Shown here piece by piece: positions 14,476-40,621 of a stretch of DNA of 64,000 nt. Position numbers and translations under genes: made by a program. Under the pieces are notes generated by a model. The model did no database searches, had not been told where the DNA came from, and saw only the letters and a program-made list of their open reading frames with translations. Every line of letters begins with the position of its first letter. Positions within the stretch are counted from its first letter, which is position 1. The DNA comes from Peribacillus simplex (GTDB taxonomy: Bacteria > Bacillota > Bacilli > Bacillales > DSM-1321), in the NCBI RefSeq assembly GCF_001578185.1, contig NZ_CP011008.1, positions 4,678,001 to 4,742,000 of the forward strand. The letters run 5' to 3'.

Positions 14476-14504
14476 TTGGCAACCACCCATATATATTTTA
14501 TAAT
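14476..14504 (+). promoter_or_regulatory. sigma-A promoter of the CD3324-family leader transcript
   Basis: TTGGCA (14476-14481), 17-base spacer, TATAAT (14499-14504). Predicted transcription start near 14511, about 36 bases before the small leader ORF. One mismatch from consensus in total. Confidence 0.72.
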
Positions 14505-14546
14505 AATGACAATACGTGTTCTTTAGGGACATAAAGGGGAGGTGTA

Positions 14547-14642
14547 ATGATGGCAATAAGAATATTAATGCCACCTTCTGCAGCGTCTCATGCAAAGCCT
14601 AGTATTGGAGGCGATACTTTGCATGGGGTTAAATTAAGCTAA
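14547..14642 (+). CDS. 31-codon leader ORF / candidate small protein
   Basis: Starts at one of two adjacent ATGs (14547 or 14550) behind GGGGAGGTG and reads MMAIRILMPPSAASHAKPSI and then GGDTLHGVKLS. It has a near-consensus promoter 43 bases upstream, so transcription and initiation signals are both strong. I do not recognise the peptide. The coding sequence contains an inverted repeat (TGCAAAG at 14591, CTTTGCA at 14617). Its first arm can also pair with GGCTTTGCA at 14676, downstream of the stop, so translation of the ORF may decide which RNA structure forms before the CD3324-family gene. It could be a regulatory leader peptide or a real small protein. Confidence 0.55.
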   Translation: MMAIRILMPPSAASHAKPSIGGDTLHGVKLS

Positions 14643-14717
14643 ACTTAATCGCCCGACTTATCATTTCTAATATTTGGCTTTGCACCTTATTTCATTCTTA
14701 AAAAAGAATAAGGGGCT
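14591..14717 (+). promoter_or_regulatory. mutually exclusive hairpins upstream of the CD3324-family gene
   Basis: Arm 1 TGCAAAGCC (14591-14599) is a perfect 9-base complement of arm 3 GGCTTTGCA (14676-14684); seven of its bases also complement arm 2 CTTTGCA (14617-14623), extended by GTAT/ATAC. A further small hairpin ATTCTT-AAAA-AAGAAT lies directly before the AGGGG site of the next gene. The arrangement looks like an attenuator, but this is inference. Confidence 0.45.
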
Positions 14718-14724
14718 GGCAGAA

Positions 14725-14988
14725 ATGAAATATGTAAAAGCGACGGCCGTTTTGCCTGAAAAGCTGATCGTTGAAATTCAAAAGTATGTGCAAGGTGAAA
14801 CCATATATATCCCTAAACCTGAAAAGGCCCATCACAAATGGGGAACCCGTTCGGGATCAAGGGAACTGATCGATGACCGAAATGCCACTATAAAATATGC
14901 ATTCAAAGACGGTCATAGCATCCATCAATTAGCCGAGGAATATTTTCTATCCGCGGAAACCATCAAGAAAATCGTTTATTCCAAATAG
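14725..14988 (+). CDS. CD3324-family helix-turn-helix protein
   Basis: An 87-residue basic protein from ATG 14725 (MKYVKATAVLPEKLIVEIQ), with AGGGG ten bases upstream. It shows the CD3324/Mor-like pattern YVQGETIYIPKPE, then KWGTRSGSRELIDDRNATI, then a C-terminal helix-turn-helix (HSIHQLAEEYFLSAETIKKIVYSK). Such proteins are small putative transcription regulators; their targets are unknown. It is read from the same transcript as the 31-codon leader ORF. An in-frame extension upstream to 14674 lacks an initiation site. Confidence 0.82.
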   Translation: MKYVKATAVLPEKLIVEIQKYVQGETIYIPKPEKAHHKWGTRSGSRELIDDRNATIKYAFKDGHSIHQLAEEYFLSAETIKKIVYSK

Positions 14989-14999
14989 GATTGCATGTG

Positions 15000-15028
15000 A
15001 GCACTGATAATGATATCAGTGCTATTTG
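15000..15028 (+). terminator. hairpin after the CD3324-family gene
   Basis: Ten-base-pair stem AGCACTGATA-ATGA-TATCAGTGCT, with only a weak T-rich tail, 12 bases after the stop. Confidence 0.6.
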
Positions 15029-15146
15029 TATGCCGAGTATGTTTCTTAGTCGTTTTCCCCCTTTTAAAGCAGATATGTTTTCTGTAAAGTAAAGAGAAAC
15101 GGTATCATGTGACAAGTATCGCGCAACAGAAACAGGAGTGAAGAAA

Positions 15147-15782
15147 ATGGAACCTTTTATCAGAAGCGAGCAGTATAACTTCATTAAATCACAAACACAG
15201 ATTCTCATAAATGGACACGCGACCGCCAACGATAAGGATGTGATCCACACCCTGAAAACAGTCGCAAAAGAACGAGTATTAAGCTTATTCAATGACTTGA
15301 GCGAAGAGCAAAAACAACTGCTGGATCCAGTGGATACCATTAAAGATCCCGCACAAGCCGAAGTCTTTCTCTTACAGGTAAAGCCATTTGTGATCCCATT
15401 TAAAGAAGTAACCGAAAAAACGATAAAAAAATTATTTCCTAAGGCAAAGAAATTAAAAGCGCCTTTGTTGGAAAACATGGATTTGAGAGAGATTTCATAT
15501 TTGGGATGGGATGATGGCGGATCCGGAAAGAAATTCATCATTGCACACCATCATAATAAACTCACAGGATTGCACGGAACCATTAAACCAACCAACAAAA
15601 AAGGAATCTGTGCCATTTGCAGTCGCTTTGAAGAAATAGGGATGTTCATGTCCGAAACAAAAGGAACCGTCCAAGGGACATTCATAAAAAAAGGGAATTA
15701 TATTTGCCTGGATAGTATGAAATGCAACCAGAACATAACCACTTTAGATAAAATGAATGATTTCATCGAGCGCTTGAAATAG
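15147..15782 (+). CDS. FusB/FusC-family elongation factor G-binding protein
   Basis: A 211-residue protein with an N-terminal helical domain and a C-terminal treble-clef zinc finger whose ligands are visible as ICAIC and, 38 residues on, YICLDSMKC. This is the layout of FusB/FusC proteins, which bind EF-G on the ribosome and release it from fusidic acid-stalled complexes. Chromosomal Bacillus homologues are common, and a housekeeping ribosome-clearing role is as likely as resistance. Start ATG 15147, six bases after AGGAGTG. A strong terminator follows, and then the first 21-bp tandem array. Confidence 0.88.
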   Translation: MEPFIRSEQYNFIKSQTQILINGHATANDKDVIHTLKTVAKERVLSLFNDLSEEQKQLLDPVDTIKDPAQAEVFLLQVKPFVIPFKEVTEKTIKKLFPKAKKLKAPLLENMDLREISYLGWDDGGSGKKFIIAHHHNKLTGLHGTIKPTNKKGICAICSRFEEIGMFMSETKGTVQGTFIKKGNYICLDSMKCNQNITTLDKMNDFIERLK

Positions 15783-15822: not shown

Positions 15823-15825
15823 CGA

Positions 15826-16101
15826 GTTTGGGCGTTTACTCGTGAGTTTCGGCGTTTTACTCGTGAATTTCGGCGTTTTACTCGTGAATTTCGGCGTTTT
15901 ACTCGTGAGTTTCGGCCATTTACTCGTGAATTTCGGCGTTTTACTCGTGAGTTTCGGCCATTTACTCGTGAGTTTCGGCGTTTTACTCGTGAGTTTCGGC
16001 CATTTACTCGTGAGTTTCGGCCATTTACTCGTGAGTTTCGGCCATTTACTCGTGAGTTTCGGCCATTTACTCGTGAGTTTCGGCGTTTTACTCGTGAATT
16101 C
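15826..16101 (+). repeat. 21-bp phased tandem repeat array 1 (13 copies)
   Basis: ACTCGTGA occurs 13 times at exactly 21-base spacing from 15838 to 16090, without any slip. The consensus unit is ACTCGTGARTTTCGGC plus a five-base joint that is either GTTTT-like or CATTT-like. All copies point the same way. Positions inside the unit vary only as A/G after CGTGA and in the joint. There are no unique spacers, so this is not a CRISPR. The six possible reading frames give seven-residue repeats, an artefact of the period. The array begins right after the FusB-type terminator and ends about 30 bases before the IS element. Confidence 0.95.
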
Positions 16102-16257: not shown

Positions 16258-17709
16258 TTAGGCCATTAATTTCAATATTCTTTTCAAGTTAACGGTGAAA
16301 ATAGCCATTGCTCCTTGTAATTCCATGCCAAGTAGACCCGAGGATTTTGCAACATCATACCCGTGTCTGTGTTTCAATTCACTGTTTTTCGCTTCTATTT
16401 TATAACGTTCTTTTGATTTTTCTTTAAAATACTCACTTTCCTGGAATGTAGCCTGTTCTGTATGTTCATTGGATTTAATACTGACAGAATAGGTCTTGCT
16501 TTTCGCTCCTTCTTTATAACAGCCCTCTTTTAAGGGACAAATCTTACACTTTTCTATATCGAAGTAATAGGTATCTGTTTGATTCGTCGCTACATCTTTT
16601 TTGCCCTGGCGAGCTTTCCTGATAGCCAAATGCCCAGCCTTACAAACGTACATTCCTGCATCCTTATTAAATTGAAATTCCTCTTCCTTCTTCCGGAATC
16701 CCTGTGTAACAGAAGGATTCAATTTTGCGACTAGTTTAATGTTATTTTCTTCACTGTATTCAATATTTCCCTTCTCTGAGTAAGCTGTATCGCCAATCAC
16801 GGTCTCAATCACCATACCGGCAGCCGTGCTCTTTTCAATTAATGCCTTTAATTCTTTACCGTCCGTTTTTTCACCTGTAGTGATAGTCGCAGCTGTAATG
16901 ATTCGTTCCTCACTCATCGCAATATGTGTTTTGTATCCAAAGAAAGAAGAGTCAGCACTCTTGTGGCCAATCTTGGCATCTTGGTCTTTGGAGATCCTTA
17001 ACTGTTCGATATCATCGGATACCGTTTCCTTTAATAGATTTAACTGCTCTTTTACCTTTGGATATTGGGTGATACGCTCTTCTGTTTCCACTACCTCGAT
17101 GAGCTTCTGGCAATAAGTAATTTCATCCTGCAATACATCAGTAGTGGTTTTGGATGGGAATTTATTTTTCATCTCTTCATCTATCGAATAGATTACTTTT
17201 CTTAATCCTTTAGATTGGTCCATCAATATTTCTTTTGGAGTCTTATGATTGTATCTGGCTTTCGTGTGGGTGGCATCCACAATAATCGTTTTGTTTTTAA
17301 TGATTTCCTTTTCAATCGCAATCTCAACGGTTTTATGAATGAGCATATCCAAAAGGTTTATGTCTTTTAAACGGAGCTTTCGAAATTTCGTTAAGGAGCT
17401 AGGGTCAATAACTGGATCTTCTGGAGCAATGCCGAGGAAATATTTAAAGGACATGTCATACCTGGAACGCTCAACTATATCCACATCTGATAGGTCATGA
17501 ATGGTCTTGAGCAGCAAATATTTAAACATACGTATTGGATCGACAGCATTCCTACCGTTATGAAGACAGTAGTTGTCCCTCAATTCTTCCAACACAAAAG
17601 AAAAGTCAATAAGTTCATTGATCTTGCGTAACATGTTATCCTTTGGAACCACTACATCATAAATGGCCATATATGGACTAAAAACCATAGACGTTTGTTT
17701 TTGAATCAT
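16258..17709 (-). CDS. IS1182-family transposase
   Basis: About 483 residues from ATG 17709 (MIQKQTSMVFSPYMAIYDVV), with GGGTG upstream; longer in-frame extensions run into the terminal repeat. The N-terminal DUF772-like domain (NAVDPIRMFKYLLLKTIHDLS, YFLGI) precedes a DDE catalytic core with aspartates in TIIVDATHTKARYN and VIGDTAYSEKGN and the glutamate in IEAKNSELKHRHGYD. A cysteine cluster (CKICPLKEGC) is in the C-terminal part. No frameshift or internal stop. Codon use is more AT-rich than the adjacent glt genes, as expected for a mobile element. Confidence 0.93.
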   Translation of the reverse strand: MIQKQTSMVFSPYMAIYDVVVPKDNMLRKINELIDFSFVLEELRDNYCLHNGRNAVDPIRMFKYLLLKTIHDLSDVDIVERSRYDMSFKYFLGIAPEDPVIDPSSLTKFRKLRLKDINLLDMLIHKTVEIAIEKEIIKNKTIIVDATHTKARYNHKTPKEILMDQSKGLRKVIYSIDEEMKNKFPSKTTTDVLQDEITYCQKLIEVVETEERITQYPKVKEQLNLLKETVSDDIEQLRISKDQDAKIGHKSADSSFFGYKTHIAMSEERIITAATITTGEKTDGKELKALIEKSTAAGMVIETVIGDTAYSEKGNIEYSEENNIKLVAKLNPSVTQGFRKKEEEFQFNKDAGMYVCKAGHLAIRKARQGKKDVATNQTDTYYFDIEKCKICPLKEGCYKEGAKSKTYSVSIKSNEHTEQATFQESEYFKEKSKERYKIEAKNSELKHRHGYDVAKSSGLLGMELQGAMAIFTVNLKRILKLMA

Positions 17710-17850
17710 CGTAATCACCCACATAAATTTATTACCTTTGATTATAAAACAAAAAAAGGTAGATTTCCTCAGAATAAACTGAGAAAATCTACCTCTATTG
17801 GCCCGAAGGGACTTTTTCAGTGCCCTCCCATATGGCACTTCTTTTTTCTA

Positions 17851-33477: not shown

Positions 33478-33783
33478 TAAAAAACCCCTCATCCCAAAAT
33501 AGGGACGAGAGGATTATGTATATCTTCCCGCGGTACCACCCACATTGGCGATAGCTAAAATCCGCCCAGCTTAAAACATCATCCGTAACATGGATTAAAA
33601 CGCCAGGCATTACTTTTTACCTTCACACCTGGAACTCCAAGGCGAGTTCACGACCATCCCAGGTTGACTTGCACCACCCGTCAACTCTCTTTACTGAAAT
33701 AAAATCGCTACTGTTCCTCATCATAGTCTTTATGAGAATATTTGATTATATTACATTCTAGTCAATTTTACCGATAATTGCAA
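33478..33783 (-). promoter_or_regulatory. leuS promoter and T-box leader (tRNA-Leu sensing)
   Basis: Minus strand: a promoter TTGCAA-17-TAGAAT (33783-33755), then a 200-base leader with the T-box bulge sequence GGGTGGTACCGCGGG (33541-33527), the site that pairs with the acceptor end of uncharged tRNA. The stem I specifier region reads GTGAACTCGCC, giving CTC (33646-33644), a leucine codon. The leader ends in a terminator CTCTCGTCCCTATTTTGGGATGAG plus T run (around 33512-33476) that the antiterminator would displace. Confidence 0.93.
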
Positions 33784-40354: not shown

Positions 40355-40621
40355 AAAAACCTTCCCTGGCAAATGAGGAAAGGTTTAAAATTCTGTCTTC
40401 TATCCTTTCACTCTTATCGTTCAAGGGTTTTTTACCTTGCTCAGGTTAGCACCATCACCACTATTCCTTGAAGAACCATCGCTTTATTTTCGGCGATCGA
40501 TCTTGGAGTCAAGTTCAATATGGCAGGTTGCTGGGTTTCAAAGGGCCTGTCCCTCCACCAACTCGGGATAAGAGAATCCGTACAATTTAAGATATTATCG
40601 TATCTGGTTGGAATTTGTCAA
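40355..40621 (-). promoter_or_regulatory. SAM-I (S-box) riboswitch of metK, with promoter and terminator
   Basis: Minus strand promoter TTGACA-18-TAATAT (40621-40592). The aptamer runs from CTCTTATCCCGAG (40574) through GTGGAGGGACAGGCCC and GAAACCCAGCAACC, then GGTGCTAACCTGAGCAAGG, to the closing AACGATAAGAG (40411). The expression platform ends in a terminator AACCTTTCCTCATTTGCCAG and GGAAGGTT plus T run (about 40387-40352). All are hallmark S-box blocks, so SAM binding should switch metK off. Confidence 0.96.

Follow-up and report, generated by a model that had tools for sequence, protein, structure and literature searches.

A widespread leader with an upstream ORF and alternative helices in Bacilli: a putative translational attenuator before CD3324 and FusB-type genes

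FusB releases EF-G that has been locked by fusidic acid. Translational attenuation has been reported for fusB of pUB101, with ribosomes stalled by fusidic acid (FA) as the inducer (PMC12493156, PMC12008383, PMC3352095; these and the other papers mentioned below are cited from excerpts). The first two of these reports run counter to the earlier note on the DNA discussed here, whose author had not seen its mechanism described. Another relevant example comes from phage Mu, whose Mor protein is described as taking over the -35 contact at Pm (PMC4390567). Parts of the arrangement that we describe have precedents in fusB attenuation and in the whiB7 relay, which come nearest, and in toiL, a uORF that responds to several drugs. 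For the leader family, the function of CD3324, the combined module and the regulation of FusB homologues, no report was found in the openly licensed PMC papers, where CD3324 turned up in two papers on nematodes that have no bearing on it.

The arrangement lies in the window, by which we mean the whole 64,000-nt stretch of Peribacillus simplex DNA that was analysed. Its features are as follows.

14476..14504, + strand: leader promoter, TTGGCA-17-TATAAT, 11/12 consensus matches, aligned in relatives
14550..14642, + strand: uORF, 30 codons counted from the conserved start
Immediately 5' of the uORF, + strand: uORF Shine-Dalgarno, GGGGAGGTG
14582..14727, + strand: leader RNA element, match to model R1 (163.3 bits, 1.3e-44), ending at the CD3324 start codon
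14587..14599, + strand: arm A, CTCATGCAAAGCC, within the uORF, partner B or C
14610..14615, + strand: 5' strand of P2, GGCGAT, partner 14648-14653
14617..14627, + strand: arm B, CTTTGCATGGG, partner arm A
14648..14653, + strand: 3' strand of P2, ATCGCC
14676..14684, + strand: arm C, GGCTTTGCA, pairs with A or lengthens hairpin D
14685..14713, + strand: hairpin D, CCTTATTT/GAATAAGG, containing the CD3324 Shine-Dalgarno
14725..14988, + strand: CD3324 family gene, 87 aa, Mor/HTH type (NF040785, 1.7e-33; PF08765 Mor, 25.2 bits)
15000..15023, + strand: terminator-like hairpin 3' of CD3324, T run weak in the window
15027..15068, + strand: palindromic motif, proposed CD3324 binding site, sole strong copy in the genome
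15085..15090, + strand: -10-like hexamer TAAAGT, 58 nt from the palindrome start
15147..15782, + strand: gene of a FusB-type EF-G-binding protein, 211 aa (PF07299, 1.3e-28; PF16571, 1.6e-7)

Much of the leader had been described in the earlier note, and most of that description holds. The near-consensus promoter is present; the consensus match alone is weak evidence, because a scan found 3 promoter-type sites and shuffled sequences average 2.9. The strong Shine-Dalgarno and the 31-codon ORF are there as well: an additional in-frame ATG at 14547 yields 31 codons (14547-14642), and the start conserved in relatives is the second ATG, at 14550. Within arm A, TGCAAAGCC (14591-14599) can indeed pair either with GGCTTTGCA (14676-14684), as a perfect 9-mer, or with CTTTGCA (14617-14623). 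The third hairpin (14685-14692 with 14706-14713) does stand at the ribosome site; rather than merely abutting it, as had been stated, the hairpin contains the CD3324 Shine-Dalgarno. The assignment of the regulator to the CD3324 family is borne out by its NF040785 match. Three things are added here to that description: the FusB-type gene, the promoter-like palindrome that precedes it, and how widespread the leader family is. The FusB-type gene starts 158 nt after the end of CD3324. Hairpins similar to the one at 15000-15023 occur in many relatives, where the T runs are often longer.

The window holds other elements besides these. A tandem array at 15824-16097 (period 21, 13.1 copies, 92% matches, consensus GAGTTTCGGCGATTTACTCGT) accounts for long repetitive ORFs on both strands. 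A 526-aa ORF near the FusB-type gene (16258-17838, - strand) resembles an IS transposase. A T-box leader (33498-33733, - strand) and a SAM riboswitch (40411-40574, - strand) both score above the Rfam gathering scores.

The leader belongs to a conserved RNA family. A covariance model, R1, was built from 19 leaders and does not include the A:B helix. It has a single strong match in the window's genome, and matches occur in 153/397 genomes of the order (53/135 genera) and in 105/398 genomes of the class. Among 398 genomes drawn from the phylum there are 11 with matches, 10 within the class and one, a weak match, elsewhere (G900, 5e-4). The exact leader pattern is found at no fewer than 118 named loci. 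Among the matches listed, leader-bearing genera include Neobacillus, Metabacillus, Cytobacillus, Fictibacillus, Rossellomorea and Niallia; Paenibacillus, Cohnella, Brevibacillus and the Bacillus licheniformis group are also among them. The earlier note had staked its reading on the peptide or the pairings being kept in relatives that have CD3324, and the arms are kept: the same nucleotides lie upstream of CD3324 in 30/30 loci fetched (from 39 CD3324 matches in 61 genomes), with 2-nt indels that shift the ORF and leave the arms in place. When the window copy was compared with Rfam 15, no family was found at or above its gathering threshold. A match to rli62 (12.8 bits, with a gathering score of 83) and the other Rfam matches, all sub-threshold at E up to 10, were treated as chance.

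A few individual loci are worth describing. A CD3324 locus outside the window's class (L438, genome G1019), which was located through its CD3324 protein, has by eye the same layout with compensating changes in the arms, and its uORF ends in HAES. Four leader copies (L059/L124, L170, L177, L181) are present in genome G060; three of them precede CD3324 and a phosphotransferase-type gene, and one directly precedes a FusB-type gene. In genome G144 the entire leader-CD3324-FusB unit is duplicated in tandem (L183). In a genome of the same genus as the window (L202, G019) the leader is followed 226 nt later by a FusB-type match, with no CD3324 match between them; it is possible that the activator has been lost there.

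The pairings were evaluated in a structural alignment of 100 leaders taken from 135 non-redundant ones, out of 222 loci. A:B (11 bp), which was left out of the model behind the alignment, is 98.5% paired, with both-sided changes in 6/11 pairs. For P2 (GGCGAT/ATCGCC) the values are 98.2% and 6/6 pairs, for A:C (9 bp) 97.2% and 4/9 pairs, and the extension of D by C is 97.9% paired. None of five pairing measures is attained by any of 500 shuffles, which ignore kinship among the leaders, and pairing drops to 34-52% in control helices that were slid. Covariation of the arms, a check proposed in the earlier note, is in this way supported for A:B, A:C and D over 100 diverse leaders. The first 19 close relatives are not decisive for A:C, where 96/500 shuffles equal or exceed the count of doubly changed pairs, and for A:B they contain no doubly changed pair. 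A:B and P2 combine into an H-type pseudoknot. The helices A:B and A:C are mutually exclusive, and 94/100 sequences are able to form either. In 86/100 leaders AAGGR is still followed by a GC through which C can extend D. Alignment and folding computations taken together suggest a set of mutually exclusive helices, one of which would act on the ribosome site of the next gene.

In 213/221 loci a start codon with a Shine-Dalgarno-like sequence opens a frame that continues without a stop across arm A, and the same test succeeds in 7-14% of controls (120/1105 shuffled, 160/1110 forward, 75/1110 reverse). The leaders thus appear to contain a translatable uORF that overlaps a pairing arm. Its frame is not constant (182, 36 and 19 loci; one locus may count twice). 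Its stops lie anywhere between +3 and +75 relative to the anchor (among the 213 loci, at or before +15 in 50, from +18 to +30 in 6, at or beyond +33 in 157), and a 2-nt indel sets most of the window's genus apart from other loci. Since frames and stops differ, it is ribosome passage over arm A that is conserved, not a peptide. The uORF peptide looks conserved within the genus: similarity to it was found, at E up to 1, in 28/61 genomes and 3/26 genera. The proposal of a peptide-controlled switch is not supported: the frame and stops differ across loci, and we rejected a peptide function on this ground despite the similarity within the genus. The first proposal of the earlier note, translation-sensitive attenuation, is well supported by the sequences, in which the uORF crosses arm A and the alternative helices covary.

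What follows the leader is nearly always CD3324, a FusB-type gene or both. The 156 order-level loci (119 and 24 from the R1 matches of the order, 13 from the same genus) were classified with CD3324 and FusB profiles derived from these loci, some of which end within reach of gene 2: CD3324 is followed by a FusB-type gene in 95, a FusB-type gene occurs without CD3324 in 35, CD3324 occurs without FusB in reach in 22, both are present as variants in 3, and there is neither in 1. The 66 class-level loci, which come from the R1 matches of the class and share species with the other sets, include 28 with CD3324 and then a FusB-type gene, 23 with a FusB-type gene and no CD3324, 13 with CD3324 and no FusB in reach, one variant with both and one with neither. 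Among the matches listed, all 118 named loci, a set that overlaps in species with the other two, match CD3324 or FusB in the sequence downstream (both in 71, FusB in 24, CD3324 in 19, variants in 4). In NCBI's annotation of one such locus, a CD3324 family protein comes first and a FusB/FusC family protein next.

The FusB-type protein of the window matches FusB/Far1 structures at 6.4e-36 and falls below the curated NCBIfam fus cut-offs. It is predicted to have an EF-G-binding N domain and a treble-clef C domain, and its role in resistance is putative. Where FusB is missing, 17 representatives of the second genes were scanned with Pfam, two of them (L215, L208) without a match. The others are look-alikes of a GNAT acetyltransferase, APH-fold phosphotransferases, an ANT(9)/AadA-like nucleotidyltransferase, another nucleotidyltransferase, a SpoU rRNA methylase, alpha/beta hydrolases, beta-lactamase-fold hydrolases, a histidine kinase and an MFS pump that is weakly similar to Tet(V), Tap and Mef(A). 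An NCBIfam scan of ten second-gene representatives gave none at a curated cut-off. That the second genes are resistance genes should be taken as a family resemblance and not as a fact.

The CD3324 protein of the window matches CD3324, Mor and HTH models only. It has a Mor domain by a marginal score (25.2 bits with PF08765, for a cut-off of 24.9) and is not of the WhiB type. The helices predicted at its C terminus are similar to those of several HTH proteins, Mu Mor being one of them: the VIA-align rows are tied, with DeoR at 6.5, HetR at 6.3 and Mor at 6.2 (Mu Mor 1rr7, Z 6.2, 48 residues). A Foldseek search with the CD3324 fold returned nothing at E up to 0.001, and a PDB sequence search nothing under E 0.96. 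Of 299 Bacillota genomes, 25 have an NF040785 match above its cut-off, as does the Bacillus subtilis control.

Between CD3324 and gene 2 there is a 42-nt motif, TTTATGnnnAGTTTGTTTCTnAATCATTTTCTnCATTT, with a dyad correlation of 0.59 vs 0.185 in the next register. Scored with a matrix trained on these very loci, it exceeds 14 in 129/156 CD3324 loci, and the shuffled maximum is 2.0. A -10-like hexamer stands exactly 58 nt from the motif start in 62/86 non-redundant sites (shuffled maximum 11, ties broken randomly). No motif above 14 is found in any of the 57 loci in which FusB comes directly after the leader, without CD3324. The motif precedes 119 FusB-type matches by no more than 400 nt, at a median distance of 100 nt. 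The motif-FusB spacing is still 80-130 nt where 836-2791 nt separate FusB from the leader (L104, L106, L116, L092, L094, L089, L168), and it is 139-195 nt in some loci where FusB is less displaced (L241, L230, L228, L052). CD3324 loci without FusB in reach have the motif in 27/34 cases and lack it in 7/34. The latter include ANT-like, nucleotidyltransferase-type (one or two) and histidine-kinase loci; coupling to these genes is doubtful, because the motif is absent there. The window's genome has one site at 1.5e-10, the next best being at 0.05, and we therefore rejected a CD3324 regulon in it. The simplest reading of the sequences is that CD3324 would activate gene 2.

We suggest, with a probability of roughly 0.6, that the leader is a uORF translational attenuator and serves as the sensor of a module consisting of the leader, CD3324 and one adjacent resistance-type gene. 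Such a leader would read ribosome movement over the short upstream ORF. Without drug, ribosomes would sweep arm A, or A:B would form; C would remain with D, and the next gene would be poorly translated. Once ribosomes on the uORF are slowed or stalled by an antibiotic, fusidic acid for example, A would pair with C, D would open and CD3324 would be produced. CD3324 would then bind the palindrome and switch on gene 2. Where the leader stands directly before FusB, the activator step would be dispensed with. We infer drug induction, the activator role of CD3324 and the polarity of the switch; the identity of the inducer is suggested by the fact that the regulated gene is FusB-type and that the pUB101 leader is reported to be opened by FA-stalled ribosomes. 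If the leader measures ribosome progress and not a peptide, it would report many ribosome-targeting drugs. There is a realistic chance that the module is a general relay. For the reading in which the module is a WhiB7-like relay of Bacillota whose pseudoknot leader gauges ribosome progress and makes CD3324, which in turn serves lineage-specific resistance-type genes, we would put the odds at even.

Other readings of the leader can be considered. It could be a riboswitch, a conserved RNA that binds a small molecule, with the uORF being incidental. In favour of this are the pseudoknot and the very high degree to which the sequence is conserved. However, a Shine-Dalgarno-led uORF runs across arm A in nearly all loci, and the conservation can be explained without a ligand, because arm A, which is least variable where both partners share it, has to fit two partners while P2 varies more. 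We regard a riboswitch as highly improbable. A different matter is the direction in which the switch works. If A:C stacked on D is the closed state, then the next gene would be released when a ribosome occupies A or the A:B pseudoknot forms. A:C directly adjoins D, so that stacking could lock D, and A:C prevails in naked RNA, with a mean pairing of 0.72 vs 0.27 for A:B in the 48 leaders that we folded. On the other hand, when these leaders were folded with a 31-nt ribosome mask, masking A made C close D further: the computed cost of opening the Shine-Dalgarno is highest with the ribosome on A (8.2 kcal/mol, compared with 6.3 in naked RNA). It is lowest (5.7-5.8 kcal/mol) with the ribosome upstream of A or on B, when A:C is free to form, and the GC that allows C to extend D is retained in most leaders. 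The cost varies by about 2.5 kcal/mol only across ribosome positions, and a gain of more than 1 kcal/mol over naked RNA is seen in at most 19/48 sequences at any position. Short uORFs (stop at or before +15, 50/213) are unable to place a ribosome on B alone. The computations lean towards A:C as the ON state, and we consider the opposite polarity less likely, though a serious rival.

The proposed output and the proposed inducer can be questioned in the same manner. Small HTH proteins frequently repress, and CD3324 might repress gene 2, the palindrome being a repressor site, or it might act elsewhere. But the palindrome lies at a fixed distance 5' of the -10, in the place of the -35, which may be compared with Mor at Pm, and action elsewhere is hard to reconcile with one strong site genome-wide; we take both variants to be improbable. 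The module could also be a housekeeping sensor that tunes EF-G release to cold, starvation or EF-G shortage and has nothing to do with antibiotics. It is chromosomal and widespread in soil genera possibly never exposed to fusidic acid, and a housekeeping role for FusB homologues has been raised (PMC12008383). Against this, the second genes of other loci look like drug-modifying or efflux proteins. A housekeeping sensor seems unlikely to us, though less so than repression.

If the relay reading is true, the module would flag unknown neighbour genes as likely ribosome-drug resistance genes, and such a sequence flag could reveal unrecognised intrinsic resistance genes in Bacilli. Apart from this, a widespread attenuator candidate now has its parts mapped, and the uncharacterised CD3324 family acquires a possible role with a defined candidate DNA site. 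How one uORF senses many drugs becomes a question that is testable on an RNA of ~150 nt.

The locus can be compared with other systems. It has in common with the pUB101 fusB leader of S. aureus a FusB-type gene, a uORF with a Shine-Dalgarno and alternative pairings near the fusB Shine-Dalgarno. The pUB101 leader differs in its sequence and arms, in having no CD3324 and in being plasmid-borne. R1 finds nothing up to E 10 in 2 kb around pUB101 fusB, a search that distant relatives can escape, as R1 is without A:B. The leaders of S. aureus fusB and of FusB-type genes in E. faecalis and L. monocytogenes (L245, L247, L248) have short ORFs and, by eye, possible hairpins; they have no R1 match. With Mu Mor, the module shares the Mor match of CD3324 in Pfam and a palindromic site, in the module a candidate one, in the -35 region. 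CD3324 is, however, shorter than Mor, its palindrome is longer and centred further upstream, and activation by it is putative. Before hflX, uORFC-6-1 is likewise a Bacillales leader with a covarying structure after the uORF start and a ribosome-rescue gene, but it has a conserved Arg-Leu-Arg peptide motif and serves another gene (PMC8632094). The main text of that paper has no match to EF-G or fusidic.

The last two examples concern drug sensing more directly. In E. coli, toiL of topAI is, like the leader proposed here, one uORF that responds to several classes of ribosome drugs by way of RNA structure around the ribosome site of the next gene; its host and its gene are different, and it works by Rho-dependent termination (PMC12121999). 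The whiB7/wblC genes of Actinobacteria have in common with the proposed module a uORF leader that senses translation drugs and stands before a transcription activator of resistance genes. The WhiB7 leader differs in using transcription attenuation, and the WhiB7 regulon comprises hundreds of genes (PMC7157823), whereas CD3324, which is of the HTH type and not related to WhiB7, has a single strong site in the window's genome.
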